DNA from: Tetraselmis striata
Taxonomy: Eukaryota; Chlorophyta; Chlorodendrophyceae; Chlorodendrales; Chlorodendraceae
Assembly: GCA_006384855.1 (NCBI GenBank)
Contig: VCJN01000650.1
Coordinates: 142,471-206,470, forward strand
Direction of reading: 5' to 3'
DNA length: 64,000 bases
The notes below the pieces were generated by a model that saw only the letters and a list, made by a program, of their open reading frames with translations, was not told the DNA's origin and ran no database searches. The position numbers were made by a program, and so were the translations under genes. Below, one piece after another: positions 2,676 through 50,007 of this stretch. Positions within the stretch are counted from its first letter, which is position 1. Each line of letters opens with the position of its first letter.

Positions 2676-2770
2676 CGCAAGTGCTCAGAGCTCTGCGGCA
2701 CTCAAGGGTATTCCAGCGCCACATTTGCGTGCGTGTGTGCGTGTGCGAGAGAGTTTAAACTAACAATAGA

Positions 2771-3231: not shown

Positions 3232-3239
3232 TGGTATGA

Positions 3240-8300: not shown

Positions 8301-10356
8301 ATTCTAAAAACCTGCGAAGACACGCCCCACAGTGCACCAACCTTTTTTGTTGACGCCTGTGCCAATTGCAGCTAATACCATCGCTGCATGCAGGTTGATA
8401 ACGACCCGGAGATGCTAATTGAAGGGCACTCTGCTGATGTGTATGGCTTGTCCATGAGCCCCTCGCATCCGCACATATTTGCCACGGCTGCAGAGAGCTC
8501 CAAGGTACGCTCAGTGCTGCAGTGGCAGCAATTTTGCACTGGCCAATCATAGACTATTCTACACCCGTCGTGACCCTCACTGATTCTCCATGTACTCTAC
8601 CCAATGCGCTCTTCAGGTTGGCATTTGGGACATCAGCCGTCGAAGGAATATTAGGCTTATTGAGACGGCGCGTATCGCTCGCTCCGTTGCGTGGAGTCCT
8701 AATGGTGGGCATCTTGCAATCGGCTGCAAGGATGGGGGGCTCCAGGTAGAAAAACATGCGAAATGCAGGATACACGCCAAGCGGCATCTCACAACTTGCG
8801 GCACTTCCACGTAGTCATACGTATGTTATGCATTTGTTAGTCTGCTCCCTTACCTGAATGTCATGACCTGGTCCAGGTGCTGGAGTTCTACCCTGCTATG
8901 CGGCAGGTGTTCTGGGGGCATGATACCCACTCATCCATCGACGAGTTGAAGTATTCACCATGTGGCCAATTCTTGGCAGTGGCATCACACGATCAGTGCA
9001 TTTACGTATACAACGTATCCAAGGGCTACTCAAAGGTAAGCCTGAAAGCGCGAGTCATATCAAACTAGGCGTTTTCCCCTTACACCCACCAGGCAGCTAC
9101 TAATGCGAGCCGTGTGTTATTCACTGGAAAGGTTGGGAGATGTGTTGGGCATTCCTCATCGGTGATTCATCTGGACTGGAGTGCGGACAGTGCGGTCATC
9201 CAATCAAGTGACACTGCCAAAGAGCTCCTCTACTTCAGCTCCCGCACATGCAAGCAGGTGCGGTGGACAGTCTGTTGCCGTGCCAGGCAGTCGAAGCATC
9301 GACGTGTCTCTTACCCTGGCGTTGTGCATTGTCACGCTCACACTGATCTGATTTCAATTTGTATCCGATTTCGATACTCCAGGTGAAGGAGAATCAGCGT
9401 GACACTGTCTGGGCTAGCTGGAGCACTGTGCAAGGATTCAGCGTGATGGGAATCTGGAAAAACACGAGCGACACGACAGACATAAACGCTTGCCATCGCT
9501 CGCCCTGCGGAAAGTATCTGGTCGCCGCCGATGACAGTGGCGTGGTATGTCTGTGTTTGTGTTAACTTTGCTCTGCTTCTGGCATATTTGTTCCCTGCTG
9601 CTGTGCGCATTGATGGCATTCGTACTGCGCGCCGGTTCTTGATAGCGGCGAAGTTCCGCAGAATGACGAAATAACGTGCATGCGATTGTACTGTCAGATC
9701 CGGCTGTACAACTATCCGTGCGTCATTGAAAAGGCTCCCAGTCGAGACTACTTCGGGCATTCCTCACACGTCATGAATGTGCGGTGAGTATTTGGTGCTG
9801 GGATTTCAGTTCGGATGCATGCATGCAATGGCAATATTTGGCGCGTTTTTGGAACCTGCTACCCATGCTGCACAGGTTTTCGCCAGATGGAAAGTACGTC
9901 ACGAGCGTCGGAGGGCATGATCGGGCAGTCTTCCAATGGCGGGTATATAAGCCCCAGGTGCAGGCACCTGCCCCATTAGTGGCGCCATGGGTGCACCTGG
10001 GCGGCAACCAGTGGGGACCAGAAGCAAGGCACCAAGTCGCAGGGAAGGATCCACCCCAACAACGGCCGGCACAGGCTGCACCCGCTGTGCAGGAGGGGCA
10101 GCAGTACTGGAACGACCGCCGCCAGTTGGATGCGCCAGCTGCCAGAGGCTCCCGCCATGCTGCACAGCAAGGGGATGTTGGTCATCAAGATGGGGGGCAG
10201 AACCCACGCATCTATGTCGAAAGGGCTGATGCCGCAGATGACCGGCACTCGAGGGCTACGCCACAACACGGGCGGGAGCGGCAAGACTCGCATGCTCGGC
10301 GTCCACCAGCAGACAGTCACCGCCATCATAGCATATCCCAAATTCAATTTGGATAG
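5353..10356 (+). CDS. EML: EML-family WD40 protein (echinoderm microtubule-associated protein-like)
   Basis: EML proteins bind and stabilise microtubules through a HELP motif joined to tandem WD40 propellers. Exons consistent with splice sites and phase are 5631-5786, 5935-6057, 6172-6326, 6571-6751, 6865-about 7190, 7315-7383, 7493-7745, 7831-7962, 8057-8205, 8394-8504, 8617-8745, 8877-9035, 9093-9257, 9383-9544, 9698-9783 and 9876-10356. In order they give an EF-hand-like N-terminus (VFAKYGQDKGGLMPVM), a HELP core (LELDFVYGYSG, then NLFYLSPDEVIYYTAGVGV) and WD repeats (KVCVWDP, FSPDGNKIATVA, TFDVVWSPFDPDTLL, GHSSSVIHLDWSADS, MGIWKNTSDTTDINA, GGHDRAVFQWRV). The intron after 8205 has a GC donor. 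The true start is unknown: an exon at about 5353-5550 and others upstream are possible. The last 130 residues match nothing I know, so the stop is less certain than the core. Confidence 0.85.
5584..5608. repeat. poly-C run, 25 nt, at intron 3' end
   Basis: A pure C run 22 bp before the acceptor AG at 5629-5630 of the EML gene, where a polypyrimidine tract is expected. Confidence 0.9.
5878..5896. repeat. poly-C run, 19 nt, in intron
   Basis: A pure C run in the EML intron between 5786 and 5935, about 37 bp before the acceptor AG. A branch-point-like CTAAC follows it. Confidence 0.9.
6402..6424. repeat. poly-C run, 23 nt, in intron
   Basis: A pure C run in the EML intron that splits the HELP motif (donor at 6327, acceptor before 6571). 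Confidence 0.9.
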
Positions 10357-12664
10357 GGTCTGCTGTTATGTCTCCGCACTCCTAAGTGCACCTGCAAGGG
10401 AGGAGGCATCACTGCGGGCCATGCTGATCGGAAGGGACAATTGCCGGTGTGAACATTCTAAGTGATCATACCGTCTAGTCTGGGCCATTATTGCGTTGTT
10501 ATCCTATATTATATGTTTCCCTTTAGGCGGCTAGACTTCGTGGCGAGGTGCAAAGCTGTTCTTGTGGGCGGCTTGATCTTGTAGCTAGCGAGGTAGTGGA
10601 AAGCTGCGTCTTTGCCAGCCGGATTATGTGGCGAAGCGTATCTGTACTGGCGAGCTGTACGCAAAGGGGGCCGCATCACACCGGTTCTTAGGGTCGAAGG
10701 ATAGAAGACGCTAGGCTAACGCGGAACGCTAAATACTCGCACTTGAACGTGCCACGTAGATCGAGGCATCACAGCAGCGTCACTTCCTGGCTTGACGAGT
10801 ATTCCAGAATACTCGTCACAAACCGTAACGGATACTTTTTGGGGGAGAATTCGATAGGAAAAAAACCCCCCCAAAAATAACGTTACGCGTAACGCATGTA
10901 TGACCCCGCGGTGCCGCTTTGCGTCGCACGATGCGCAAGATCCACAACCACCGCCGCCATGATCGGGCAGCATGACCCCACCCGCAGTTAAAAGTAAAAG
11001 TAAAGCTCGCTCCGGGACATTGGCCGAAGCTGCCCTAGCACCCCTCCCGTAGTACCCCCGCTGCGCGCCCCGGTTTCGAAGGGTCGTAGCCTGCGTCGAT
11101 GCGGCGGTGAACTGAGAGGACATGCAGCGAGGATCAACGTCAAGGGAACTGGAGGCGCGGGCCCCCTTCTCGGCCGACCGCCGGTGGTGCCGCTAAGCGC
11201 GAGCGGAACTACCACCCCCTGTGCCACGAGAGGAAAAAGTGACTACCATGTATTAGCGGGTAACGGGTAGCGGCGGCGGGGGTGGGTCAGGTGGCATTGG
11301 GCAATGGCCAATCGGGGCGGATACGGCTCGCAATGCCGCTGTTGACCGGGGCGCGGCAGCATGGAAACACCGGCCCGTGTGACGCGTGCCGGTGAGTCGC
11401 ACGAGCGTCTTGTATCCTCTTAGGTATATCGGTGATCGATTTAGCGGTGAGCGTAAAATTCTCAGCCAATCATATCGCAGTTTTCGCTGCGTTACGCGTT
11501 ACGCTCGCGTCTTCTATCTTTCGACCCTTACGTACCACCTCACGTACCGGGCTTGCAGTACTTACCGCTTAGTGTGGGCAAGGCGCGTACTATATGACTC
11601 CATGAAGGCGATACGCGGGTACCGTCCTTGTGATATCGTGCCGCATGTCAGCCCGTTGGGACCATTATAATGCTTGCTCGTGATGATCACGTGATGACCA
11701 TCATGAGATCAAGAGCAAAGACGCGAGGCGACGCGGCGCGTGACACGCGGCAGCATAGTACTCCGGGGTTGGGTGCAATTTTACCGAGTGAAATTAGTCC
11801 TAATACGCTACTGTCACAGCGTACAACGTTTCAGCGTACGCATGCGCGCGTACCGGGACTTGCTTACTTGGCATACCGGCGAATACTCGTCGCCTGACAT
11901 ACGGGTATCACTACTTTTAGTACCGGGAGTACTGCGTTGTATGTGTATGCCTGATGTCCAAGCAAGCAGTCACCCATGGCGCAACGACCAACTGTCTGTC
12001 GCTCAGCTCTCACACTTAGAACCACCGACAGACCTAGGGCCCGTACCAACGGCTAACTGCCGCCAACCACGGCGCCCGTGCATACCAATAGCGCGTGGGA
12101 AGGCCTAGGGGCTTAGTCGGCTCGCGCGCCCGCTGGATGCTTTAGCATCCTCTCGGCGCGCTGCCCGCCCACTCTTTGGCTTTCCAAACGTCTCATCCCC
12201 ACCCATCTTGTAACCACGCTACTACACCACAAACACCTCGGCTCTGTGCACATCACACCTGCACGTGCCTCGTCTATTGCAGCTGTTCTTCAGGGGCATT
12301 ACAGCCTGCAGTCGAGCTGCGAGTGATATCGCGCAGCAAGCAACGGTGGTGAGTCGATCGCGGTTACGCCTGTGTTGTTTGCGTCATGACGCCGGTCTTG
12401 CTTTACCTCCTGTGAACCCGTCGTACCGACTGCCTGGACTTGTCGACCGACCGACCGACCGATTAGCGTACCGAACGTGCCTGATCAGCACTGGCTTGCT
12501 TGTTGCCATATGCGAGCAGTCGGTATTGCGCGTCGTCGGTGGGTCGTGTCGTGATACCGTACGCGTACGCATATGCGCGCGTGGGGGCACTCGTAGTCCA
12601 TTCGCGAGAGGCATGTCGTGCGGCACAGGGTGAGGAGTGCTTGACGTATTTCGCGTCGATCGAC
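10357..12664. other. intergenic stretch without recognised gene
   Basis: About 2.3 kb with only short ORFs. It holds local palindromic words (for example GTTACGCGTAAC near 10,881, and a hairpin GGATGCTTTAGCATCC near 12,134). It also holds a 21-bp word at 12,170-12,190 whose reverse complement recurs at 12,883-12,903, in the leader of the following retrotransposon. Nothing else was recognised. Confidence 0.5.

Positions 12665-12693
<29 letters not shown>
12665..12693. repeat. (CA)n microsatellite
   Basis: A pure CA dinucleotide run of about 29 bp. Confidence 0.95.
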
Positions 12694-12695
<2 letters not shown>

Positions 12696-12780
12696 CTGTC
12701 ACGCCGAGTAACCAAGCAACTCGCACGCGTGCGTAGTGCCGGCCAATAGGGCCGACGGCACTGTGAGACGTACTTCTACT

Positions 12781-12902
12781 GGAGTCATAGGAACCGAGGC
12801 CAAGAGTCAGCAAGTCTTAGACAGAGACTTAGAGGCCAGGACACGTACATAAGACCACATGCCTAAGAGTCTGTTAGGCGATCGTTTGGAAAGCCAAAGA
12901 GT
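12781..12902. repeat. 122-bp direct repeat, first copy
   Basis: These 122 bases recur without any mismatch that I can see at 13,352-13,473, in the same orientation, 571 bp downstream. They lie just before the gag region of the Ty3/gypsy element and probably belong to its leader or to an LTR. No matching copy exists at the 3' side of the element. Confidence 0.85.
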
Positions 12903-13351
12903 GGCTGTTCCTAAGTGGTCTTAGTCCTGAACGCCCACATCCTAATACCCCCACTTAGACGCTGACCTCGAGGTTGTTCAGAGGACGCCCTCACCTCTTG
13001 CAGTGAGCCACGTCTTCACAAGTGGAGGGAGCAAGTCATCACAGTGCAACGTTCATCGGCGCCGATCTTCCGCGCTATTGTTGGCAAGGCACTGTGCAAG
13101 GCGCGCGTAGGAGGGATCGCCTACACCTACAACGCGTGCAACGAGCTGAGAGGAGCCGCGTGTGGTTATTATCTCAGCCTGGAGCGCGTTCGTCGGCAAC
13201 CGCTTCATCAACCTGTTCAGTCCAGACTTCTGCGCGCCAATTGGGGGGGGAGCAGTCACTGAGCAAGGCGCATGTCAGAGGGAGAGAGCCCGCGCCAACT
13301 CAACCGACGCTTCACGAGGAGTACCGGAGCACATGTGGCAGCACCCTTATT

Positions 13352-13473
13352 GGAGTCATAGGAACCGAGGCCAAGAGTCAGCAAGTCTTAGACAGAGACT
13401 TAGAGGCCAGGACACGTACATAAGACCACATGCCTAAGAGTCTGTTAGGCGATCGTTTGGAAAGCCAAAGAGT
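13352..13473. repeat. 122-bp direct repeat, second copy
   Basis: Second identical copy of the block at 12,781-12,902. The sequence that follows leads directly into the gag-side region of the retrotransposon. Confidence 0.85.
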
Positions 13474-13969
13474 CTTGCGTCAAGCGCTCCGTGACGCCAT
13501 GGCGCAGCGGGGGGAGACCCCAGCGCCGTAGGATCTGGAACACCATCAAGACGACGGCCACCTGGCAGTCAGCACTACGTGCCCAATCATATAATGGGTG
13601 ACCTGAGTGCAGCGGAGGAGCGCATCTACGAGGAGCGAGAAGACGCGCGGACAATCGCCGGTGGTTTACGCAAGGAGACAACACCACGCCATGAGCGCTT
13701 CGACGGCGCTACCTCAATATGGACGGAGTGGTTCAGTTCATACAACGCCAACGTGTTGGTGCCATACGCGCTTGCCAAGGCGCCACCAAGATCAGCCCCG
13801 AGGGCTGACGGAGCTGGTTCATAGGAGGGCGAGAGCACCGGACCGGAGTGGGTTTTCAGCCCGGCGGACTCCCTTCAGCTTCTTCAAGAGTACTCGAGAT
13901 CAACGCCGTCACCATGCCCATCATCGATCAATGGCAGAAGGACACTCTACGCTATCAACAACAAACTCT

Positions 13970-14860
13970 CCGCTTCGACCCTGCATCCGGACTCTATTAC
14001 GGATGAGAGTGCCATCGCGCGAGGATGCGGACGCCTTTCACGAGTTCCGTTATCGACGCTACGTGGAGCTCTTTGAGACCAAGTTCAACGAGGCGCCGAA
14101 GATGCGCACTAGGTACGACGCCTACACCCGTGAGGGCTTCCGCGAGACCCCTGCTAGCTTGGCGATGACTCTTCGCGAGCTCAAGACGCATCTACCGGAC
14201 CTCACGTGGGACAAGGTCAACCAGAAAGCGTTCGACGTCATGATCTCTGTGTGGCGCTCTATTCCGGCGCTCAAGCAGTCCCTCGACGCTGGCTTCCACA
14301 AGCTCAAGGACATCGCTGTTCTACCTCAGTCTCATGAGGACCGCTTGGCCGAGATAGCTGCGGAGGTCGAGCGCTATGAGGACATCGTGAGGAAGGATGA
14401 GATTCGAATGGCGGAGGCCTTGACGGCTGCCCAACACTTCGCGGAACTGACTGGAGCATCGGCGCCGGCAGCTAGTGGATGACGGCAGCACGGCACCTGC
14501 AATCAAGAACCGGTCATCACATGGACCATGGTCAACGGACGTCGTGTGCGAGCGCAGCTTGTCGTCGTGAAGGACACCCACCAGATCCGCCCGTTGTGCG
14601 AGGCTTGCACAAAGGCGCGTGGACGTGGCATCTTTCACGGAGCCAACTACCGAGAGTGTGCCAACAAGTTCGGCTCAACCATGTAAGTCAACGATGCCGC
14701 TGGTGGCCGTGGCGGCCGTGGAGGCGGCCGAGGCGCAGGCCGCGGTGTCCGTGGAGGTCATGGCGGTGGACGCGGCGATGGAGGCATACCCGGAGGCGGA
14801 CGAGGACCGTGCTGGAACGCTGGGTGCGACGGCGCTCACAACTTCACTGAGTGCGACAAG
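13970..14860 (+). other. gag region of the Ty3/gypsy element
   Basis: Predicted helical, charged protein typical of a gag capsid region (DADAFHEFRYRRYVELFE and following), then a Gly/Arg-rich stretch. At 14,810-14,854 lies a zinc-knuckle-like motif with spacing C-x4-C-x3-H-x4-C, a small variant of the usual retroviral CCHC spacing C-x2-C-x4-H-x4-C. Treated as a fossil part of the element. Confidence 0.6.
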
Positions 14861-16029
14861 CCAATCACTGACCCTACGCTCATCGCACGACTGAAGCGCA
14901 ACCAGCGGGAGCGAGAGCGTCGCCTTGCCTATGGACAACAACGCGGATGGACTATGGACGTGGAGACCGGACTGTCCAAGCTCGAGATGGACTTGGCGAG
15001 GAAAGCCGGACACATGCTCAATGGGCAACACGACGCCCATGCTGACGAAGCAGCGACATCATCAACAATGGCAGACCTGGAGGCCATGTTCTCTCGCATC
15101 CTCGAGAAGTCTCAAGCTGCCCATGGTGCTACGGGTGCCATGCGCTTGGCCGTGGAGGTGCCGGACCCCTTTCTGGATTGCGTTGACACCGACGATCACG
15201 GCACTTTGCTACATGGAGCGTCGTGTGTGGAGCTGCCCGTGCGTGAGCTGTGTGAAGTCTTCTTTGGAGCTCCAGGTCGTGCGCAACCTGTGGGGGCTGA
15301 CCGGACGCCGGAGTCGACTGTACCAAGACCGCGTGGACGCCCGGCAGTGCTGCCTCCAGGATCAACGCGGAACCCTGAACTTCGCATGCGCCAACCCACA
15401 TGGGACGCCCAACGCGAGCAACTCACCAAGCAGCGGCCCCAAGGCTTTGAGCCGGCAGTCGAGCAGGAGGCTCCTGCGTCCTACGAGGGCCGCCGTGGAA
15501 GAGGAGCGATCACCTCGGACATGTTGGACATCCGCAATCAGCCGCTCCTGCAGCATCTGTGCACCGCGCTACAACACGCCAAGTTCCCTGATCTACCCGT
15601 TGCTGTGGTATCGGACATGACACCCGAGCATGCTGCAAGGTGGTTGGAGGCACGCGACACTGCACTGCGTGGAGGACTTGACACTCGTGACCACATGGCC
15701 GTGGCATGGGAGACGGTGCTTCAGCAAGCCGCCCGACGCTTCGAGGCGACAGCGCGGCTCACCTGGGTTGACTACACGCACCTCGACTTGACGCGCGTCT
15801 TTCCCGCAGCCGTGCAGAGCGTCTACGGTCTGTCTCTCCCACGCGCCAGTGTCCCGCCACTGTCCTCGCCATCAGCGGAGCCCCAAGCCAACATTCATCC
15901 AGTGGACGTGGTGCAACATGGCGTCAAGCCTCTGGAGTCTCGGCGCCAGCTGTCAGCGACATCTTCGGAACTTCAGCAGTTGCGAGAGGTGCAACGCAGC
16001 GCATACCCTGACTACCCGGAGTATGACCG

Positions 16030-16400
16030 CCACACTGCTTTCTACGTGGACTGCAAGTTGACCGTCATCGTCATTGGCGGCGTGCGCATCCTGATGGCCT
16101 TGTTAGACACCGGCTGCGACTACAACGGTGTGCACCGGCGAGTGGTGGCTCGCATGAAGCCGGGCGAGGCGGACGCCACGCTGCAGTCCATGTCCATGCA
16201 AGGCATTGGCGGCAAGATGGAGATGCAGCGCCTTGTGGGGCGCATCTCCTACGTGATCAACCCGGACACTAATTGGGAGCGCAAGTTTGAGTGGCCATCG
16301 TTCGCCATTCTTGAAGGCGGTCATCTTTTAGATGTCATCTTGTGCACATCCGTCATGGCGCACCTTGGCATGGTCATCGATGTGGGGGGGCATACTGCCT
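16030..16400 (+). other. aspartic protease domain of the Ty3/gypsy element
   Basis: The hydrophobic-hydrophobic-DTG signature (MALLDTGCDYNGV) near 16,095-16,133 and a later hydrophobic LLDVILC segment fit a retropepsin fold. It lies between gag and the methyltransferase region. Confidence 0.65.
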
Positions 16401-16553
16401 CATACCGCCCAGATCCCCACGATCTCAGCCGCCACGTCGCTGTGCCGCTGAAGCATCACAACATGCCCAAGCTCCAAGTCCGGCGCAGGCTGCCGCACGC
16501 AACGCTGACCGTGTTGGCATCGGACGGCCCATCTCCCGGACTGCCGTCAGGAG

Positions 16554-16555
<2 letters not shown>

Positions 16556-16584
<29 letters not shown>

Positions 16585-16585
16585 G
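16556..16585. repeat. poly-G run, 30 nt
   Basis: A pure G run inside the retrotransposon, between its protease region and the acidic linker. Confidence 0.95.
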
Positions 16586-17219
16586 CGAGGCCCGATGCCG
16601 CAGCCAACCTGACCTCTTCATTCTCCTTCAATATCCGGATCGAGCTGCAAGCGGACAACGTGGGCGCCGACGCTGCAGTGCAGCCGGAGCAGCAGGACGA
16701 CGACGATGAGCTACCGGAGCTTGTAGCCGACTCAGATGACGAGGAGGACTTTGTGCCCTGTTGGGTAGAGGAAGTGCCCGACCATGTTGCCAACGTCATT
16801 GCGTCATGCTTCACCCTGCGCGCCAGTCCCATGGATGCCGACTCTGACAGCAATGAGGAGCTGCCGGGCCTGGTGGAGGACTCCAACGATGATGACGATG
16901 TCTATGTGGAGCTCACCATCATGACACAGACGGAGCCGGAGGTCGAGGCAGCGCTTGATAGCGAATCACTGGCCGCGGGCGCATGTTACGCCCTTCGCAC
17001 GGAGGACCCCAACACTGACAAGCTGCAGGAGCCGGACTGCCCAGCAGACGATGAGGAGCTGGAGGACGGCACTGCAATGTCATTGAGGGAACACGAGGAC
17101 GAGATACCGGACTGGAGGGAGCTCCGGAGGCAGCGTCAAGCTGCCGGACGGCTGCACTTGAGCGGCCTTACACTGGAGTGTTTGGCGCTCGTGCGCGCTG
17201 TGCCGCATTCGACGCCGGA

Positions 17220-18370
17220 GCTGGCCTACATCATCGACCTCGACCGGACCGGAGGCAAGAAGGGGCGTGCCAAGCAAGGGCTCTTGTTCGCTGGCATGCT
17301 GTCGGCGTTGTTCACCAACCTCGTCGACGGGTACCACTATGAGCTGATACAGATCGTGGATCGTATGCTCCGGAGCGCGGCTCATCGGCAGCGCGTGCTG
17401 CAACAGCTCGAGTGGATGCACCAGCGGTGGCCCGTGCAACTTCCTCGCAATGCGTTCGAGAAGTGCTTCTCTCTTAGCGACGAGTTGGAGCATGACGTGG
17501 AGCAAATCACAGCACCAGCCACCCTAAGGCACCTGCCGGAGCTGGACGAGCTACGCGTTGAGCCTCCTTGTCAGGACGTGTCATCGATGGGCACTCAGCA
17601 TGGACTACGTGGTGCGCGTACTGGAGTGATAGTCCCGTTGGCAGAGGCGATGAGCGAGCTCAACTGCATGCTGGCCAAGGCACGAGGCGTCAAGGAGTAC
17701 TGGGCTGCTCCCGCGCAGTATGGATACGTTATCGAGAACGTGATACCGGCCGCGGCGAGCCGACGCAGCCTTGAGGTGCAGGAGTTCATCGACTTCATGG
17801 CCCGTGTCTTCGGCGAGCCCAACGCGCATCATGCCCACAAATGTGGAGACGCCTCTCTTCGCTCTGCTTTGTGGTGGACCAACACCTTCACTCAGCACTA
17901 CTACAAAGCTGTGCAACACGAGTTTGAGCGGCCGCCGCGCGAGACCTACGCACAGATTGTGGAGCGTTGCAGCGGTGGGCTGCTTCGCGCTCAACTGGCA
18001 ACGCCCACACGCTCAGGCAGGCACAGTGCTGGGGGGGCTCAACGTTGCCGGTCGGCGCATGATTTATGCGCCCAAGTCAGTCAGCACGCCCAACACGCGG
18101 ACGCAGCGCCTCCGACCTGGGGGGGGGCGCCCGGCTCAGGAATGGTGGAGGTTGTTGGCATCGACCCGCCGCAATACCGTCCGTCATCAGCCGTCATGCG
18201 CGAGGCGTGCCCTCTCGACAGAGACTATGCTGGCTTCTACACCCGGCAGGAGCTAGGCTTCACTGAGGAGGAGATGGTGATTGCCATCGGAAATGTTTGT
18301 GCGCCGACATCGGTGTCGGTCATGAACCGGTGTGCTGTCGCCTATGCGCACGAGCGCAGACATCAACATA
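17220..18370 (+). other. cytosine-C5 DNA methyltransferase domain inside the retrotransposon
   Basis: This region has the ordered hallmarks of C5 methyltransferases and reads most like the DNMT3/DRM type. Motif I-like: GLLFAGMLSALFTNLVDGY (about 17,280). Motif IV with the catalytic cysteine: PPCQDVSSMG, whose codons start at 17,563. Then GLRGARTGVIVPLAEAM, which aligns with the GL..GTGRL helix region of DNMT3. Motif VI: YVIENV, with ENV codons at 17,734-17,742. Motif VIII-like: GDASLRSALWWTN (about 17,850). A late FYTRQELGFTEEEM followed by IGNVCAPTSVSVM (about 18,235-18,330) resembles motifs IX-X (MGFP and GN..SVPV). Members of this family transfer methyl groups from S-adenosylmethionine to cytosine in DNA. 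The segment sits where no Ty3/gypsy domain is expected, between protease and reverse transcriptase. Confidence 0.75.
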
Positions 18371-19199
18371 TGCTGCAAGCTGTTTGTGCAACGACGATTG
18401 AGGAGGACGCCCCTACCGGCACAGCAGTTGAAGATCATTCGGTCAACACGCAAGAGCTGCGCGCCGCACAGCACGAGCTCCGCCGCTCAACTGCTGCCGC
18501 CGTGGAGGCAGAGATGGAGCATGCCATCAACATGGCTACACTCAAGCAAGGCCCTAGGGTGAAACCTCCTGACAACCCACGCAAAGCAGCGCGAGTGACC
18601 AAGGCAGGGCGCCGTTAAGAGGAGGAGCAGCGCCAAGCGACTCGAGCGACGGAGCGGGAGGTCGCCAAGGCTCGGCGCCGAGTGTTGGCAGCTGACCACA
18701 CGGCCCGAGGTGTTGCCAGCGATCATAAGGCTGCCAAACCAAGACCCCGTCGAGGTAGAGCTGCTACCGGACGCAAAAAAATCAGCGCGGCGTTGACACT
18801 TCTGATGTGGCTAGCCCTTTTGGGCCCCGCGGGCTTCGTCGCCGCTGGCGTCGGTTCGCGTGCTGGCTGATGGCGGATATCTTTGGTGGAGCGCAAGAGA
18901 ATCCTGCATGGGCCACATCACATGTGGACGGTGTTGACGACAAAGCTGCAGCGGATGGATGGAGAGAGAAAGCCATGCAGCTCTCGTGAAGTGCTATGCC
19001 GCATACGCCAACGAGAAGCATCTCGGTAAGGAATCACCAACAGTGAAGGTAACGAGCAAGCTCATCAACCCCAAGGACTCCAAGCAGCCTCACCACTGGG
19101 CGATATCGGAAGACTGGAAGGACAAGGAGGGCTTCGCAACACTGATGGACTCAGATCCGGAGTGATACGCGTGGGGTCTGGACGACTTGCGTGCCGTTG

Positions 19200-20530
19200 A
19201 CGCCGAGCCCTATGACTTCCAGCTGGTCGACTACAACCCAGTCTTCAAGCGCCAGAATCACCTTGCCCATCGAGAGCAAGAGTGGGCTAACGATTGGGTC
19301 AAGAAGTTGGAGAAGGCAGGCATCGTGGGCGAGATCGAGAGCCATTATGCTGCACCAGTCATCGTGGCGCCGAAGAAGGACGAGCATGACGCATGGACCG
19401 ATCTTCGCTATGCGGTGGACTATCGTGGGCTCAACGAGCGTACCATCCGCGATCAATACCCGTGTCCGACTGCGGACGAGCTCATGACGCGCATGGAAGG
19501 AGCTTCACGATTCACCGCGACTGATTGCACGAAGGCATTTCATCAGCGCCGAGTGTCGCACAAGCCGTCCGGACCCGATGGATTGTCATCGCAGCAACGC
19601 CTCGCGTTCCATGCAGGCAATCGGCTGCTAACCTTCAAACGCATGCCCTTCGGACACAAGAACTGTGTGGCAGCATGGCAACGCGTTGTGGATCAAGCGC
19701 TCGCTGGTTTGGACTTCGCATTCGCTTCGCGGACGATGTACTGATTTTCAGTCATGACGATGAGCACGAGCACATGCGGCGTGTGCGCATTGTGTTTGAT
19801 CGACTCAAGGCCCGGGGAGTACATGTCTCTCCACCCAAGACACGTCTCGGACTGTCACGAGTGACCTTTCTTGGTCATATTGTCAGCGGAGCAGGCGTGG
19901 AGCCTATGGCTGACAAGGTGGATCCCATCAACTCTCTTCCGGCGCCGAAGAATGTCAGTGATGTGCGCCATTTCCTCGGGATGGCCACCTACTACTGCCG
20001 TTTCTTGGAGAGCTTCTCGCTCGTGAAGGCACCCTTGACAGCTTTGACCAAGAAGCATGCGCCGTGGAATCGGGGCGCAGCCGAGCAACAATCCTTCGAC
20101 GCCATCAAGACCATGATGGTTTCGGCGCCGGTGCTGCGCCATCCTGATTGGCGTCGCCCGTTTGTGCTGCACACCGATTGGTCTCGAGCTGGAGTAGGGG
20201 CGTGCCTTTCGCAGGTGGACGACAATGGCGTGGAGTATGCCGTGTCTATTGCGTCGCGCATGAACACCCCCGTGGAGGCAGACCTGTCTAGCTACGAGGG
20301 AGAGGTCGGCGCGGTCGTGTGGGCTGTTCAACGCTTCCGCTACTACCTGTACGGCAACCACTTCCAGCTCATCACTGACTGCAAGGCCATGGAGTGGCTG
20401 CGGACGACAGCAAGGCTGCGAGGCAAGCTTGCTAGGTGGAGCCTCATCCTTGCGGAGTACGACTTCAGTATCAAGCACCGTCCGGGCAAGGACAACATCG
20501 TGCCGGACTTGCTCAGTCGGCGTCCAATGC
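19200..20530 (+). other. reverse transcriptase and RNase H of the Ty3/gypsy element
   Basis: Reverse transcriptase landmarks: APVIVAPKKD, RYAVDYRGLNERTI, FKRMPFGHKN, the catalytic FADDVLIFS and FLGHIVSGAGVEP. RNase H landmarks: FVLHTDWSRAGVGACLSQ, SSYEGEVGAVVWAV, FQLITDCKAMEWL and KHRPGKDNIVPDLLSR. The order and motifs are typical Ty3/gypsy. Confidence 0.85.
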
Positions 20531-20929
20531 CAGCGGAGCCAGTAAAGGCCACCTCAGACGCCGCCGGCACCACCACTGCAATCGCCACTCAGAGGAGGTC
20601 GCTAGCCGCGATGGCAGATGCGTCTGCTATGTTTGGTGGCTGCACACCCAACAAGTGCCTTGGAAGGACGCCCGCGCTACCCTCAGCACACGCAGCGTTT
20701 GCAACACAGTGTATCGCAATGTCCTTCACAGCAGGTGTCTACGCTAGCCAGGAGCTTCATTGGCCTACCCGGGACGTGTGGAGCAGCCCCGTGGCTATCT
20801 CTTACCTGCGAGGTGAGACCACGCCAGCCGACGTGTCAGTGGAGGTGTGGCAGCAGCTTGTGCGCCGCTGCGCCAAGTACAGCTGTCACAACGACAAGGT
20901 GAGGCTGCACACTGGAGACACTGCCCGTG

Positions 20930-22010
20930 AGGTGCCCAGGCCTGAAGAGCGACCACACGCGATTCACCGAGTACACGCCAGCATTGGCCACCTTGGCCGC
21001 GACCGCACGTACCAAGTGTTGGCCCGCCACTTTGTATGGCCGGGCATGCACAAAGACGTCGGCGCCATGGTCAAGCAGTGCCGCGCATGCGATCGCGTCA
21101 AAGCGTCGTTCAACCAGAAGCACGATCGTCTCAAGCCCATGCCACTGTTTGGGCTCTTCTATCGCTTCAGCGTGGACTCAGCCGGACAGCTGCCGACTAG
21201 CAACGAGGGCCACAAGTACGTGATCGTCATCGTGGAGCACTTCAGCAAGTGGATCGAGCTGGTGCCTGTCCGCGACCTCGAGGCGTCTACGACTGCCAAG
21301 GCGTTCCATGAGCGCGTGTTGGCCCGTTATGGGGCACCCGCGGAGGTCGTCACAGACAATGGCACTGAATATCAAGGCGCGTTCCGCAAGCAGTTGGAGC
21401 GCCATGGCATTCAGCCCGTGGATATTCCGCCAGGGCATCCCCAAGACAATGGCATGGCGGAGCGCATCGTTCAAGTCTTGAAGGTGGCACTTCGGAAAGT
21501 TGTGCCAACTCTCGGCACTGCCTCTTGGCACTCGTGGATGCCAGTGATCGAGCTTGGCTATCGCGTCAGCAAGCAAGCAACAACCGGCTACAGCCCGTAC
21601 TTTCTTATGTTTGGCCGTGATCATGTGGCGCCGGACCATGTTCGCGCGCCGTTGGAGGAGCCGATCGACATGGACAACGACATCATCAACCTAATCACAC
21701 AGCGGTCTGATATGCTGAGGGCTGCCATGCCTAAGGCATTCGAGAGGGCGCTGCAAGCTCAACAGCGCGATGTGGTGCGCTACCGCAAGGTTCGGCGCGG
21801 CGATGTGCAACCTCGGCGCCACCGCTTCGAGATCGGCAACTACGTCTACGTGGCGCAGCCCCCGCTGAACACCCTTGACGTCCGTACCGCCCGCACCATC
21901 CTGTGTGTTGTGGAGATCTTGGAGTCCGGATGGCTGCGTTTGTCCGGATCCGACGGCAACGAGATTCAAGTGCACATGGACAACTGCGCGCCGTGCCACT
22001 TGTCCAACTT
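20930..22010 (+). other. integrase of the Ty3/gypsy element
   Basis: A zinc-binding HHCC head (HRVHASIGHLGRDRTY ... CRACDRVK) precedes the core with FSVDSAGQLPTS, EVVTDNGTEYQGAF and a DNGMAERI helix. A GPY/F-like C-terminal module (VVEILESGWLRLSG) follows. Known role: insertion of element cDNA. Confidence 0.85.
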
Positions 22011-22039
22011 TGTGCCAGCGCGGTATGGCCGCGGCATGC

Positions 22040-22195
22040 CAGCATGCAAAGGTTGCGGCAGCGACAGCATTGCAGCCCCACGACTCATCTGCGACAAGTG
22101 CCAAGCCATGGTGCATGTGGCGTGCGCCATGTGGCAAGGCAGAGTTACATTCTGGCGAGGAGTGGCTATGCCCCGACTGCGCGCCGCCACTACGC
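22040..22195 (+). other. PHD-like zinc finger at the integrase C-terminus
   Basis: Cys/His spacing C-x2-C, then ICDKC, then VHVACAMW, matches the first half of a PHD finger (C-x2-C, C-x2-C, H-x2-C), with the conserved aromatic residue after the last Cys. In chromoviruses a chromodomain occupies this position. PHD fingers read histone H3 tails, so a role in targeting is a reasonable inference. Confidence 0.6.
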
Positions 22196-22324
22196 CGCTG
22201 ACGCTGCAGCATGATATGCTGCCTCCAGACAAGCCATCTTCGACGACAATCATCAGCCAACATCATCTTTTCTTCATGTCGTCGGCCGCGCACTTCCGTC
22301 TTGGACTCAACACCTGTGGAGGTG

Positions 22325-22336
22325 AGTGGGGGGGAG
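22325..22336 (+). promoter_or_regulatory. polypurine-tract-like stretch at the element's 3' side
   Basis: A G-rich run with few pyrimidines directly after the last coding similarity of the Ty3/gypsy element. This is the expected place for a polypurine tract just before a 3' LTR. No LTR could be matched after it. Confidence 0.35.
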
Positions 22337-22345
22337 TATGCAGTG

Positions 22346-23118
22346 CGGCGCCGACAGTTTACCATCACCATCCCATTTCTCTTTTTCCTGCGACAGTAGG
22401 TGGATTTGTTACTGCCCTTTTTGTAATTCACACCGGTACCATGTCCTAGCTAAGCTCGCTATCTGCGGCATGTCCCTCGTCATCAGGGCTGCTTTGACAA
22501 ATGCGCACTAGAAACAGAACTACAAACAGCAACTACGAAAGGTTGCCAGCAAAAGAGAGACATAAGCCTGAAACCTCGTCATCCTCCTGCTGCTAAAGAT
22601 TACTTGCTAGAGCTCCATCGTCGTCGCGTGGCATCTGTGGGGCAGCTACCGTCGTACAGGTTGGGGGATACGGGTAGCCTCTTCCCGTAAGCGTGGCCAC
22701 GGTGTGTTGAGCTTGCCATCGTGTTCTTTTCTGCATAGACTCGCATAGACTGACAAGTCGCTACATTTCATTACTCACGGAACATTAGGTGACGGCGTGT
22801 GTGTGCTGATGGCCGCACGTGGGGTTACCGGAGATACTAGAGGCCATAGCGCGAGGAGACTAGCAGCGTTATGGCGACGGACGCTATTGGTTTAACAATC
22901 TCGCGAGGTCAGCACCCCTGAACAGCCCACACGAGGGCAGCATGCGCAGATGACTGTGAATGCAACGGCATGCGGTTCCCGATCACGCTCTGCTTATCAT
23001 GCACAGAAGCAGAGCCATGGCCTTGGATCGCCTGGTGGTCGTTGATGAACGGGCGGCTGTGGGCGTACTGGCAGCTGAGGGATATGGGTTTTATGCCTAT
23101 ACGCACATCCTCATCTGC
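22346..23118. other. intergenic stretch without recognised gene
   Basis: About 770 bases between the retrotransposon and the TG microsatellite. Only short ORFs were seen. It may include remains of a 3' LTR that I could not match. Confidence 0.5.
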
Positions 23119-23120
23119 GT

Positions 23121-23121
<1 letters not shown>

Positions 23122-23207
<86 letters not shown>

Positions 23208-23209
23208 GT

Positions 23210-23240
<31 letters not shown>

Positions 23241-23250
23241 GGGGGGGGGG
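23122..23250. repeat. (TG)n microsatellite followed by 27-nt poly-G
   Basis: About 100 bp of TG repeat with one C interruption near 23,203 runs directly into 27 G (23,224-23,250). Long ORFs here on both strands are artefacts of the repeat. Confidence 0.97.
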
Positions 23251-23633
23251 TTTGAGGTATCCTGGTGGTAAATTGTGCGTGTTGGACAATGTGTGGTGCG
23301 CAGTGGAATGCAACCATACATCCCTGCCTGCAGTGCGAAATATATGCTGCAGTGGCCCAGTGAAGCTGAGGAGGCATCGCTATGCTGCAGCGAGACTTGC
23401 GAGCGAGGCTGTATCGGAGTCGCGGAAAGAAAGCACCAGTGAGCGCCAGGTCCATTAAGGGAAGATATTTGGCAATTCTTCACAACAGCTGGCAGCAATG
23501 GATAGCAAGGTAGTGCGCTTTTTGTGCGGCTAATCCTGACTGCATATTTTAGATGCCTATCATTTGTGTGGTTAGCTGTGCCATGTGCCCATGGTCTACA
23601 TCCAGCTCACCCACATGCATGGACTTGCTTCAC

Positions 23634-26600
23634 AGGAGGTGCCAATCATGGGTGCGATCCCAAGCGTCATTGAGCACCATGTCAGTGTGGTGCTACAGAA
23701 TCATGTGTCGATCCATGTGAACCGCCCAGAGGATGGTGTGCACACCCGACCTGCGTTCTTCGGCTCTGATCTTCTACACACTGCAGTTGCTCTAAAAACT
23801 CATCAACATGTGCCATGGCCCTAGAAAATGGACTGACGTGGGCGTGATTGCTTTCTGTGGCACCGTTATTTGGTGAGACGCAGACTGTGTAGGCGTTGCA
23901 CCCATATATATGGATTCCATTCTGCAATCTACCGGCAAGCACAGTCCCATGCCCCCCCCTGCGGGCAGGAAGCAGACTCATTTGAGCGATGACTTATACC
24001 AGAAGCTCATTAGCTCTTGCCTTGCATGCTGGGAATCAGACTGCGTCACAAGCCTTCCGGGCCGCATTGCCCTTTGCGATTGGGTGTCGCGGGCCCTCAA
24101 GGCAAGCGCAGAATGTCATGCATCCGGCGTCACTTGTCTTGCTGTGAATATGTGTCTAGGTGCATCAATCTAGCACACTGTCTGCTCTGCAGGTTTCAGC
24201 CCCTCTTCACCATGCCGCTATGTCAAAGGCTCTTGAGAGCAATGCGCATATAGTGAATCATTTGCACCAGAGGCTCAGGCTGCTGAATGATGATCTCAAT
24301 TGCTTTTCATCGGACTTCCGTAGCGCTGAAGGATCTTCATCTTACCGATTCCAAGAGGTGAATATTACGGAATGCTTCACACCGAACCGCCTCTCAACCG
24401 CGCCCATGCCGCCTGACCGCTTCATGCCTGAGGACAGCGCAGATAACATGAAATACGCCTCTTTATTTCTTGCAGATAACAGACATCGAGGCGCTTCTCA
24501 AGAACAAGCTTAAACACCCAGAAACTAACGGCCTCCTAGAGGTGGCGGTGTTGAACACCAACAACATCAATCATAAGGTCTTTGCGGCCCTCACTCATTG
24601 TCCGAATACCACGCCTTGGCTGCGGCGCAATGTTATCAGTCCCTTTTGCTGAATCATTCCAATATAGGACACGTTGTCTTACGTCGAGCTATCTCTGAGA
24701 GGAGGAGGGAAGCGGAGGACACGAATGACATCGCTTGCACCTCGTGACAGGTGTGTAAGGTCTCGCCAATAACATCACAAGCATCCCCTGTCGCCATGTG
24801 GGGAATCATTCCTTAAGTTATGGCTTTTGCTTTCCCAGTGAGGATGGCCCTGTGGTGTGGGCGGAGAAGGTCAAGTCTTACAGGGTCACACAGAGAGACG
24901 GGGCTCTCAACCTGAAGGTGCGCCTTCAGAAACCTCAAAGTAAACTTACGTTGCAGCTGTTGCATATTCCTGTTGCAGCTGTGCCCATGGCATGCCCATG
25001 GTTCGTGGCCATGTCAGCCACAACGATTATGGCAGGTGAGGAGTGCTCGCAGCCCAGGAGCTCTTTCCCATGCCGCTGCCAAAAACGACGTTGGCAATTC
25101 AAAGTCGATTATGGTAAGGCGCCTTGCGGTCCCTGTTGCTGAAGCTGCTTAATGACGCGACATGCTGGATGTCAGGCTAGCTGGATCACATGAGACACTC
25201 CCACTGCGTTTGGACCTCATCAGAGCGCTGTGCGTATTGGAGCTGCCCGCGTAGCCAGTAAATCTGTGTGGAAAGGATCCGTTTCACTTGTCAACCTCAA
25301 GAGAGCTATTTTGGCCACACCTCTAGCAGTGAATATGCGCAAGGCAAGCCAATCAGCTGTGCGTTACGGTTGCCACCTGCGATACCTAGCGCCATTGATC
25401 GCCTTTTTGCTGCCTGCACTGCAAATTAGAACAAAGTTGCGGTCGGGAACACTGGTTTTTGGTTTTTGGTTTTTGGAGCGGTTTTTGGAACACTCACAAT
25501 TGCACGTCTACTGCTGCGGTCATGCTGATGCAGTCAGCAGATTCACCGGCGGCCATGCATGCTGGCCAGCTCAAGGTTATTGTGAGGTATGAGATAGCCA
25601 GCACACGGGCCATAGTGTACACAGCGCCGGAGTTCTGATACTCTCTGTAACGTGCAGGTATGTGGAGGAACACAATTCATCCACGGCTCATTTGAAAACG
25701 ACAGGTATGGCGCATACCCGGTGACTGGGGCGCTACTAATAGTGGATGGCCATCCTGTGTTATCAAACAAGCCACAGATTACTGGCCATGAAGTGTTTTG
25801 TTGTTGTTGTTTTTGTTGGGGTGTGTGTGTTTGGTTGGGGGGGGGCGGGGGGGGACTAAACTTAACGTAAGAGACGGGATTTGCTTGTTTGGGATTTGGT
25901 ATGTACTGAGCTCGCAACACCATTTCAACACAGGTACATGCACAGTCCCTGACGAGCCGCCAGGCAAGCCCAAAACAAGCGGACTCATGGATCCACCCCA
26001 CTCCAGCAAGGTGTGAGTTTTCTTTTCCTGAAGTTTGAGCCCCCCACATGGTTTTTCTCACCTGCAGATTAGACATACAGCAGCCCCCTGGCCATCACAG
26101 CGGGAAAGCACATTCAGAACACAGGTCGCGGCTTCCAGTGCTCCAATTATGCCGCCTCTGTTGTAGATGTCATGCACTGGTATTGACACTCACTGCAACA
26201 TGCCGTATGTGCAGCCTCCAGGTATCACAGGTGACGAATTTGATGCTGTGCTGGAGTGCATGTGGCGTGCCTGGGCAGATAGTGTCGAATTCTATGGAAT
26301 CCACGATTCAGAGGTGCTTGCCTCCCTGTCTGCATGCAGTTTTTGCCGTAGTGTCAACATGCCAATGAGCCGCTAGTGCCTGACATTTATTAGCATTTTG
26401 CGCTCAAGGTTGCAGATGAGCTTCACGAACAGATGGCATCAAGAGGGGACACCTTCCAACTGGAGCGTGCCGATAGAGATATTGCATCAGGGACCGCACC
26501 AGGGGAGGAGGAATCCTCACGGCTCACATATGCAACGGGTCAGGAGGAGGCATTCCCAAATACAACACGCCCACACTGCAGGACTTGGCTCTGCCTCTGG

Positions 26601-29600
26601 CATTCACTAAATCACCGTCATGCTGGCTGCAGGGGCAGCGATATCTCCTGGCATACCCGGCCATGTCGCAGAGCTGGTCACTGATGTCCAGCTTCGCGGG
26701 TTTTCCCCCGACCATTCGTGGTGGGTAGTAGTGCAGCGATTTTGTACAATGTACCGAGTCCGCCGGAGGCGATGCGAGATCGGTGTCCTCAGTCTATTGA
26801 TTGACCAGTGGCATCTGTCGGTACGTCAATTGGTATCTCTGCCTGACATGTTGCTCATTATTTGTGCCTTCGGCAACTGAAAGCATGTGCCATGTGGGAC
26901 TTGCATGCAGTTTGGTTACCTCCGTGCCCTGCGCGGGGTTTTTCAACCGCTAATTGGTTCAGCAAGGAGACAGGAGCTGTCAGTACGGGAAGAGGATTTG
27001 CTACGGACATGCAACTTGCGCATTTCCAACCTCATTGAGTTTACTCTGAGAAATGGAACACAGGACCTACTGAGTTTCAGCTTTGATGAGGTAGACAATG
27101 GGCTAGCACAGGGTGTGATTGTCATGTCAACTTTACTGCTGTCAACATGAATGTGCCGTTCAGCTATTGCCTACTGCCAATTTCACAGGCTGCGGCGGCC
27201 TTCCGGGAGCTGCAGCGGTTGTTGCTGCTGTCATGTGCAGGCGATGAGTGCGCATGGTCAGATGAGATTGATCAGATCACCTTTCAGCTGCTGGCAACTG
27301 GGGCTGTGGCTCGCCTGAGGGAAGGGCTTCCTGAAGATCCCACGGTGTCAACCCACTCAGCATCTTGATCATGTTGTCCTTGAGACTTACTACTGAGACT
27401 CATTGTCATAACGACGGGCACGCCTCTTGACTGTGTTCATGCACCCTCAGGACACCAACTTTGCTGGGGTACTCTCTCGGAACCTAGTCATAGCCAACAG
27501 TGAGCTGCAGGTCGACACCATACTTCGGCATGCATACCTGGGAGAACCCGATTTCTGCCAGTTCAATGCATACATGAGGTATACAGAACTACTGCGCGAG
27601 GTGCACATGCTGCTCAAGATGTCCAGTGACAGCACTCCAGAATCGCCGCTGGAGTACTCTGCTGCCATCCAAGTAGGGATTCCTATCCTAGACTGGTTTT
27701 GAGTGTGTGGACATATTCGTGCGCGGCAGCATCTGGCTAACAGTGTATTGCTGGTTGGGCATTTAGCTGGTGGAGGACAAGCTGCACGAGCACCATGAAG
27801 TTCTTCGAAATGAGAAGCTCTTGGATGAGCAGCGCCAGCTTTTAGATCCTTTGGGCGCCATGCCGCCTCTCGGGATCTTCAATATTGTGGAGGCCTTCAC
27901 AGAAACTATTGAGAAATGGATTGACGAGTCAAAGTCTCTGGTACTTTCCTGCATTGAAATACAGTGTCGCAACTGGTTGGCAGGCAACAGTGTGGGTGTT
28001 TCTAACCCTGCACCTGGGGGTCCCTTATTCTCCCCCAATCATGTTGAAATTATTGATGGCAGGCACTTCGTATGGTACTTAATGCTGTGCATCTAGATCC
28101 GGGTGATGAAGAGCATGCACCAACGCCTAGCCTGCTTCAAGTGTTCAGGATCACGCAAGAGGTGTGTCTGCTGCATGCGCTTGTGCTTGTTCACAATAGC
28201 CCTTGCTTTGGGATCCTCATGATACCGACTGGTATGGCATGATTTGTCTGATTGTAGACGCTGAGAAAAATAAGCTGCCGGACAACGGTACGGGCAAAGT
28301 CTCTGTCACGCAAGCTCAGGTTTGGAGATAAAATGGTTGACATGTTTCAAACGGTCATCCAGGTGAGGCACTTTGCGTGCAACACGAGTACGAGCATTCC
28401 ACACGGCGAGGGGGCTGTGGTGGTCAGTGCTCATATGAGTCCTCTGAATGCAACTACACATACATGCATGCTTGGCAGATGTACGCTGGGAAAGTGGCAG
28501 AGCACTTTCTGCAGCAGCTAGATGTATGCGCAGATACAAGGTATGGAATCACAGAGAGTTTCATTGTTCAGCGTGGCAATCAATCATGTCATATCAAGCC
28601 CTATGTCGGCGTATCATGCATATCTCTCACCTATCTGCGCTTATGCGCAGGCCTGCGGAAGTCTCTACCAACAGTCTGCCTGAAGTGAGTCGGCCAAATG
28701 ACAGACTTTGATGCACAATTTGATTTGGCTTGATCACTCACAAACTTACCGCCACCTGTCCATCGCATGTTTTCACCCAGCAGGTATCTGGAAAGGTGTT
28801 GAACAGAGGCATGGTGCACAACCTGAACGATCTATGGATTATTCTCTGCAATCAGACTGTCATCGAGCACGAGATTCAAGAGTGCTGCCTGAAGGTACCC
28901 GGGCAAGACATAATGTTTCATACATTCTACTGCTTGGATCATGTAACCATCATTGTCATCAGTCTGTGAGAAGTTATTAGAGCGAAGTGTGCTCTGAACA
29001 CTCAGGGCGCGGAGTACCAGTCTATCCAGCTGGATACAACGGATTTCGATCTACACAAGAGTCAGGTTTGTTTTGTGGGCTGGTCAACCAATGTGTGCTG
29101 CCGGCCTCATGCTGCCGCCATAAGCAACTGCCGACATGTGATCCCGTGCAGGCCTCTGCGGTTGCGGATGATGACGTCAGTGTGGTTAGTGAGTCTCTGG
29201 AGTCAGTGACGTCTGATGGGAATGGCGGCGAAAGAGAATACCAGTGGCGAAAGACTAATGAAGAGAAACTGCAGGATGTGCAGCAGTCTATCTGCAGCAT
29301 GCTGCTTGATATGGTTAGCGGCGTGGCAGACACGTACAGTGTCATTGTTGCAAGTGTGATGCGTGGGCTAACAACTCAGGTACTTTTTTTGCCACCAATA
29401 ATGCCTGTCTTGTAAGATATATGCACTGCATCTTCCTGACACGCCTCTGCTGCTGCCCCAGAGCCAGGGGCCAGAGAGCATGCTTGTTCATCGGCTTCAA
29501 GACATGCTGGGCCAGGAGCTGGGATTGCTGAGCTCTTATCTGAATCAACACGCCTTCACACTGCTACTGGAGAGTACCTGGTAAAGAGACCATGCCTGCA

Positions 29601-48160: not shown

Positions 48161-48325
48161 TCAGTTCTGCGCATCTGCCTGCCAATCAAGGCATCAGGAA
48201 TGTCTGTTTGCGCAGATACAGTATCCCAGAGTCTCAGCTTTGAGACATGAAACACTGGGTGGCACTCAAGCTCAGGTGGTAATAGTATTTTGTAGGCCTG
48301 AGGGTTCACCTGTTCGATGACCTCA

Positions 48326-49420: not shown

Positions 49421-49429
49421 TTTGAGTTA

Positions 49430-49960: not shown

Positions 49961-50007
49961 AGCGACAGGACGCAGTTGTCCGGCATTAGGGTCTCTGCAT
50001 AATCACT

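Follow-up and report, generated by a model that had tools for sequence, protein, structure and literature searches.

A predicted C5-cytosine methyltransferase domain in the Pol region of a multicopy Ty3/Gypsy retrotransposon family of the green alga Tetraselmis striata

In the genome of the chlorophyte Tetraselmis striata (Chlorodendrophyceae), a C5-cytosine DNA methyltransferase (DNMT) domain is, as judged from sequence, a normal and selected part of Pol in a multicopy Ty3/Gypsy family, here called Gypsy-1, which has split direct repeats and the Pol order protease–DNMT–reverse transcriptase (RT)–RNase H–integrase–PHD finger. Homologous predicted DNMTs are likewise carried by other retrotransposon classes of the same genome. 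The explanation that we favor as a whole, at a probability of roughly 0.55, is that of a DNMT domain of Gag-Pol that is kept by selection and would methylate the element's own cDNA. One copy lies in a 64,000-nt stretch of contig VCJN01000650.1 (positions 142,471 to 206,470 of the forward strand), which as a whole is referred to here as the window; the features of this copy are collected in Table 1.

Table 1. Features of the Gypsy-1 copy in the window
Feature	Window position	Strand	Basis
Whole Ty3/Gypsy element	11812 (TGTCAC) to 22395 (GCGACA)	+	Window positions
5' repeat A1, starts TGTCAC	11812..12885	+	Match 11810-12885 to repeat A of complete copy C427, 94.6%
Gag-like and protease-like coding, with frame changes and stops	13263..16564	+	tblastn with C2330 open frame, residues 1-1063
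Additional 126-nt copy of the A end	13348..13473	+	Direct repeat of 12777-12902, 99%
30-base G run, site of frame change	16556..16585	+	tblastn with C2330 open frame
C5-cytosine methyltransferase (DNMT) domain	17155..18420	+	Genome matches, hhalign to Copia DNMTs, sub-cut-off PF00145
Motif I-like LLFAGMLSAL, degenerate	17281..17310	+	Window reading frame; C2330 counterpart aligned
Motif IV PPCQDVSSMG, catalytic Cys codon 17569-17571	17563..17592	+	Window reading frame
Motif VI YVIENV	17725..17742	+	Window reading frame
Motif VIII-like SLRSALWWTN (R-x4-W-T-N)	17854..17883	+	Window reading frame
Recognition region, out of frame in window copy	~18010..18141	+	Comparison with C2330 copy
Motif X-like GNVCAPTSVSV	18289..18321	+	Window reading frame
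Reverse transcriptase, two frames	19370..19884	+	PF00078 (RVT_1) in both frames; frame change near 19720
RNase H	20146..20460	+	PF17917 1.4e-28
Integrase, H2C2 zinc domain and DDE core (rve)	20941..21441	+	PF17921 2.8e-16, PF00665 6e-14
C-terminal PHD-like finger, frame-broken in window copy	22045..22198	+	PF00628 E 0.69; frame change ~22115
Repeat B1, element end (...CTGCGACA); no A2-B2 after	22336..22395	+	End searches, comparison with complete copies

Pfam scans of the window and of the open reading frame (ORF) of the copy on contig C2330 find the Ty3/Gypsy Pol order protease–RT–RNase H–integrase with a DDE rve core. The protease of the window copy is known only by its DTG motif and a PF13650 match of E 0.17 at 16073-16234. 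As to membership of the DIRS group, the Pfam scans found no tyrosine recombinase (PF00589), and an rve integrase and target duplication are present instead. In the C2330 copy the PHD-like finger gives a PF00628 match of E 5.3e-4 and 20.4 bits, below the cut-off of 24. The earlier note on this DNA had named five DNMT motifs between protease and RT; motifs I, IV, VI, VIII, and X do lie there in a single open frame and in canonical order (17281-18321), following the DTG region and preceding RVT_1, RNase H, and integrase.

On its own sequence the window copy is decayed and its DNMT domain broken: the coding region has repeated frame changes, stops, and the G run, and within the DNMT the DNA-recognition part is out of frame with the C2330 copy. 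The description of this element as a fossil is borne out for the window copy. Its additional 126-nt A end is missing at the same place in the C2330 copy (alignment with L039). The window copy consists of A1–coding–B1 only and is without a direct target duplication; the flanking bases at 11808-11811 and 22396-22399 read CTAC and GTAG, which are reverse complements of each other.

Three complete copies (C427, C1872, and C1905) have the order A1–coding–B1–A2–B2, with an A repeat of ∼1,060 bp and a B repeat of ∼60 bp. Split direct repeats with TG..CA ends thus take the place of plain LTRs in all three, the termini being TGTC...GACA and the 4-bp target duplications CAAC, ACTC, and CTAT. A1 and A2 are 99.5-99.8% identical in each of them; these are therefore young insertions. 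An absence of LTR-type repeats had first been suggested by the finding of only a 126-nt repeat in window positions 9000-27000 and of none between the C2330 ends, and was overturned by end searches and the three complete copies. At the 5' end of the C2330 copy (L039 176-2299) the A repeat is tandemly doubled (1,063 bp, 99.9%), with none found at the 3' end, which we read as an odd product of integration or recombination.

The genome searched comprises 224 Mb in 2,903 contigs; protein searches with the domain lead to gene models of the Tetstr1/TSEL series, with identities of up to 98-99% across the matched part. The DNMT segment has at least 114 matches in this genome (99 of 359 candidates scored); grouped by position, the matches listed occupy 81 places, of which 73 reach at least 66% identity. 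RT matches number at least 93 (91 of 1,650 candidates scored); the element count was built on the 66 with an identity of at least 76%, and the other 27, at 43% identity, belong to a second family, Gypsy-2, outside the Gypsy-1 count. These 66 matches make up 62 elements, and among the matches listed a DNMT stands upstream of the RT in 55 of the 62 (defined as within 4 kb and on the same strand), at a distance of 708-1294 nt (median 754). Of the seven elements for which the matches listed show no DNMT, one lies 680 nt from where its contig begins (C1998) and another has a DNMT farther upstream, at 8.4 kb (C2272); because only part of the DNMT candidates was scored, true absence is not to be read from these matches for the remaining elements. 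Stop-free DNMT matches spanning residues 1-422 number 25 among the matches listed, nine of them in open frames of 2,854-2,970 aa and one (C1912) in an open frame of 1,112 aa. The window copy taken alone, with its sub-threshold match to the Pfam family PF00145, would suit an account in which a piece of a host DNMT gene landed by chance in one retrotransposon copy, but this is refuted by the presence of the domain at the same place in 55 of 62 elements and by the at least 114 genome matches, and we give it practically no weight. The main claim of the earlier note, a C5 methyltransferase built into a Ty3/Gypsy element, is upheld by the same 55 of 62 RT-bearing relatives among the matches listed, together with profile links to relatives that pass PF00145; the copies with the same domain order that it proposed to look for in this genome are there, and the outcome named as speaking against it, that other copies of the family lack the segment, was not encountered.

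The family membership of the domain is best seen through its relatives. With the PF00145 gathering cut-off at 22 bits, the window copy alone reaches E 0.039 and 13.8 bits, so that the match on which the earlier note had staked its claim fails for this copy, as it does for the other two Gypsy-1 ORFs scanned (C2330, 13.1 bits; L041, 16.7 bits), but it is obtained for Copia relatives (L026, 47.1 bits; P0022, 42.5; L056, 37.3; metagenome Copia P0026, 24.2) and for the DNMTs of a LINE (36.4 bits) and of Gypsy-2 (25.6 bits). Since the single copy falls short, its identity as a DNMT follows from these relatives. By hhalign, with E-values here and in BLASTP being those of single comparisons, the Gypsy-1 profile aligns to the Copia DNMTs at E 1.3e-23 over 285 columns (reversed control 0.27) and to the LINE DNMT at E 5.7e-20 over 282 columns (reversed control 0.28); the window copy alone does so at E 2e-12 over 263 columns (0.41) and at E 6.1e-9 (0.62), respectively. 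BLASTP of the window copy against L026 gives 56.2 bits, the best of 60 shuffles giving 25.4. A chance motif match is ruled out by the reversed and shuffled controls. The Gypsy-1 profile also aligns to four database PF00145 proteins (E 1.7e-7, 131 columns). With L014, a canonical DNMT that stands alone in this genome, the profile gives no link (E 0.069, probability <1%). A phmmer search of the window copy against PDB gave no match up to E 10. An AlphaFold model from 13 sequences is weak, with a mean pLDDT of 50.2 and a pTM of 0.47, blocks of pLDDT 65-89 in residues 41-130, and values below 50 in residues 246-422. We hold it to be almost certain that the segment has the DNMT fold and belongs to the family.

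Homologous DNMTs in further retrotransposons go beyond what the earlier note had claimed. Gypsy-2, with at least 27 RT matches at the 43% level, 11 of them in a 1,771-aa open frame, has DNMT motif I (EPCGGGY...HSDIDPAARKAA) at the end of ORF1 and motifs IV, VI, VIII, and X in ORF2. The +1 frame change that falls inside the domain has an identical junction in all six copies read (L049 2400-3300, minus strand; L060-L064), which count as one origin because they are near-identical there; the motif IV string GWPCPGMS is present in five of the six and missing from the C1431 stretch. A programmed Gag-Pol shift within the Gypsy-2 DNMT is likely, we infer; the alternative, that the DNMT has been lost across the whole subfamily, retains some probability. 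Among Copia elements, query L026 has at least 128 matches (125 of 493 candidates scored), with open frames of 2,299, 2,147, and 2,164 aa at 98-100, 47-48, and 36% identity to it, the DNMT lying 3' of a zinc knuckle and ahead of the protease and integrase regions; L056 is an additional Copia type with a DNMT. The LINE, found at four genomic places (one in two pieces), is represented on C2687 (L058 1-3999, L057 3-4895) by one frame of 3,505 aa that combines endonuclease and RT with a PCIF1_WW match, the DNMT, and RNase H. Through the PCIF1_WW match (4.7e-15), this one non-LTR retrotransposon has two methyltransferase-type domains. PCIF1, an adenine-N6 methyltransferase, has the motif NPPF, and the C2687 LINE reads NPEY where that motif would be placed. 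Two proteins from ENA contigs, which we take to be metagenomic, are of the Copia type (P0026) and of the Gypsy-1 type (P0028, 42% to L041 over 85%). Relatives in viral or prokaryote contigs were not confirmed by searches with A2 and P0026 against viral contigs and with A2 against genome contigs.

In a tree of 19 rows, built without DNMT1, DNMT3, DNMT5, or KnitGypsy references, the 10 retrotransposon DNMTs are set apart from 8 database PF00145 proteins and L014 by a 100/100 branch. Its database rows were taken from P0031-P0038, P0040, and P0041, and it left out P0033, P0036, and P0039 as well as the window copy and L042-L046, which are decayed or partial. As for branching inside the retrotransposon group, neither a single Copia clade (p-AU 0.435) nor a single Gypsy clade (0.321) is rejected. 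A bolder scenario, which we offer tentatively and would not bet on, is that a single DNMT lineage adapted to retrotransposons moved as a module between unrelated element classes, to be found now in two Gypsy families, several Copia families, and a LINE, that the green algal lineage in which this took place may lack a host DNMT3, so that the main de novo methyltransferases of the genome would belong to its parasites, and that the Gypsy-2 enzyme would be completed only by Gag-Pol frameshifting, which if true ties methylation to Pol synthesis.

Conservation of the motifs and the pattern of substitution bear on whether the domain works as an enzyme. In alignment A6, made up of seven DNMTs including the C2330 copy and leaving out the window copy, the motif IV Cys, motif VI ENV, and motif VIII R, W, and N are invariant in all seven; in profiles of relatives, motif VIII comes to stand opposite HRARYFWGN of DNMT3A. 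The GxG pattern of motif I is not followed in the C2330 lineage (LFLFAGMLSVL) or in P0028 (LYLCAGVLTSL), and exceptions among relatives are PCP in motif IV of Gypsy-2, GNV in motif VI of gene model P0025, and CH in place of CQ in motif IV of gene model P0002. By NG86, dN/dS between the window and C2330 copies is 0.22 without residues 286-329, the shifted stretch, and 0.45 with them; outside that stretch 29 of 51 changes are synonymous (p 4.6e-7). The decayed Gypsy-1 copies L002 and L003 give 0.53 and 0.55 (synonymous excess p 0.004 and 0.006), and the Gypsy-1 subfamilies of L039 and L041 give 0.26 with dS saturated at 1.95. For the Copia DNMT (L026 versus L038) the value is 0.22, with synonymous excess at p 7e-8; the flanking gag-linker and protease-integrase parts of the same pair have 0.62 and 0.51, with no significant synonymous excess in either (p 0.08 and 0.06). 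It is conceivable that the Gypsy-1 DNMT no longer catalyzes methyl transfer and persists in Pol for a structural role or for binding nucleic acid, as the off-pattern motif I, the sub-cut-off PF00145 scores of the three scanned ORFs, and the altered P0002 motif would have it; we rate this as unlikely, given that the catalytic Cys and ENV persist in 7/7 A6 DNMTs, three of them of the Gypsy-1 type, and that the cleaner comparisons yield dN/dS values as low as that of the more canonical Copia DNMT. On balance we lean toward catalytic activity in relatives with open frames.

The substrate is probably DNA rather than RNA. A profile of Copia and Gypsy-2 DNMTs matches DNMT2 (6e-11), DNMT3A (7e-10), and M.HhaI (3e-9) in PDB, the best E of a Gypsy-1-only profile being just 0.43, and in all three PDB profile searches with other families included, DNMT2 or tRNA(C38) methyltransferase structures outscore DNMT3A. 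That ranking would fit a cytosine methyltransferase acting on RNA, used in the manner of DNMT2, whose target for marking or binding is the genomic RNA of the element and not its DNA; the lack of CpG depletion in the element would fit it too, and RNA methylation has been proposed for SymbioLINE-Dnmt by its 2018 authors (PMC5890265). The DNMT3A match is longer, however: with profile A3 it spans positions 90-263, the best DNMT2 stretch stopping at 161, and in a profile of relatives it is collinear from motif I to motif X and reaches the RxxxxWxN block, with W-x-N opposite FWGN. Moreover, two tested SymbioDIRS relatives methylate DNA (PMC5890265), and an RNA substrate seems to us improbable. We read the domain as DNMT3-like in its predicted nature; neither of the companion domains PWWP and ADD was found as a Pfam family in the C2330 ORF (E up to 10 and up to 1).

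CpG depletion, a prediction of self-methylation, was sought as a trace of methylation and not found: CpG o/e is 0.99 in the window element versus 0.85 in the rest of the window, and 0.80-1.02 in ten further loci with flanks (L026, L041-L049). C-to-T differences between the window and C2330 copies, for which polarity is unknown and codon position confounds, occur at 40/1,286 CG (3.1%), 31/900 CHG (3.4%), and 35/2,132 CHH sites (1.6%), a mild rise at CG and CHG (p 0.005 and 0.003); two other copies show no excess at CpG (L002) or a slight one (L003). Confounded as it is by codon position and polarity, the pattern would agree with a degree of CG/CHG methylation in old copies.

In the explanation that we favor, the DNMT would be made as part of Gag-Pol and packaged together with RT and integrase, and would methylate cytosines in the double-stranded cDNA of its own element, either ahead of integration or during it. 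The methylated new copy would then resemble resident DNA or land in tolerant chromatin, with the PHD finger possibly recognizing a histone mark. The window copy itself would no longer act in this way. Methylation of element or host DNA, as the earlier note had it, is a putative role; the specific step of cDNA self-methylation is possible, at somewhat less than even odds. The DNMT might instead benefit its element by holding it in check, methylating the element's copies so that they are silenced and the host is harmed less, or it might methylate rival DNA such as that of viruses. Both ideas are already in print (PMC5890265 and, in its accessible text, PMC6338049), and the genome has stand-alone DNMT loci of virus-derived appearance, but the near-identical copies suggest recent amplification, and we regard this pair of roles as quite improbable. 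Cytosine methylation is the classic weapon against retrotransposons; in elements that bring their own methyltransferase, the usual roles are reversed. With a third host lineage, one DNMT group in several classes, and recent-looking copies, what a retrotransposon gains from DNA methylation becomes testable in a unicellular alga.

Retrotransposons bearing DNMTs are established for Symbiodinium (LINE, DIRS) and Klebsormidium (Gypsy) (PMC5890265). KnitGypsy-Dnmt3 of Klebsormidium nitens (de Mendoza et al. 2018, PMC5890265), compared by description and not by sequence, is likewise of Gypsy type and multicopy, its DNMT lying within the Pol frame and evolving under purifying selection (here dN/dS 0.22-0.26 in the cleaner comparisons), and has a DIRS-like repeat arrangement (here the split repeats); its host is a charophyte, whereas the present one is a chlorophyte, and 4-bp target duplications, a C-terminal PHD-like finger, and homologous DNMTs in Copia and LINE elements distinguish the present family. 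Three protein database searches of word-based sensitivity, with some matches nameless, retrieved no protein labelled Klebsormidium. The Symbiodinium elements SymbioDIRS-Dnmt3 and SymbioLINE-Dnmt (PMC5890265) resemble those reported here in that more than one element class per genome has DNMTs, that catalytic residues are conserved, and, on our DNMT3-like reading, that the DIRS enzyme is of DNMT3 type; they differ in that the LINE DNMT belongs to an orphan lineage and that of DIRS is a Dnmt3, whereas here one group extends across Gypsy, Copia, and LINE, and in that SymbioLINE-Dnmt lies in ORF1, whereas the LINE DNMT here lies between RT and RNase H of one ORF. In yeast, isolated SymbioDIRS DNMT domains produce de novo CG methylation, and KnitGypsy-Dnmt3 produced no methylation, a result judged inconclusive by its authors (PMC5890265).

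The accessible part of a more recent paper (Mol Biol Evol 2025, PMC12344493) places DNMT3 members inside LTR Copia elements and DIRS elements, with streptophytes and dinoflagellates as the cited cases; its main text has no mention of Tetraselmis, and a LINE with a DNMT of the present group was not found in that part. According to the accessible text of PMC9998398, DNMT5a and DNMT6 occur in Tetraselmis species and DNMT3 was not found in MMETSP green algae; ChloroDNMTs occur in chlorophytes and charophytes (PMC12344493, accessible part). These host-type enzymes have the C5 methyltransferase fold in common with the present group, and the same portions of the two papers give no retrotransposon context for them. 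In passing, the accessible text of PMC6338049 names green algae as one of the groups with Ty3/Gypsy and DIRS elements that encode DAM and DCM. In the open-access literature as accessible, supplements aside, we found no detailed report of DNMT retrotransposons in Tetraselmis or another chlorophyte, and none of one DNMT group common to Gypsy, Copia, and LINE elements. Within the literature searched, the kind of element is therefore already known; apparently new are the host, the particulars of repeats and domains, and the range of element classes involved.

Other observations concern the genome and the window more generally. Repeated loci (L009-L014, L016-L020) encode a stand-alone DNMT of ∼325 aa with virus-like-looking neighbor genes, and L024 (G000:C2009) encodes a DNMT of 630 aa that looks phage-like or bacterial and may be contamination of the assembly. 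Window positions 48000-58000 have a GC content of 40-47%, versus mostly 51-62% elsewhere in the window, and this low-GC block contains a further H2C2/rve integrase frame (48329-49426, minus strand). An array of 78 copies of the hexamer ATAGAT occupies window positions 2766-3232.
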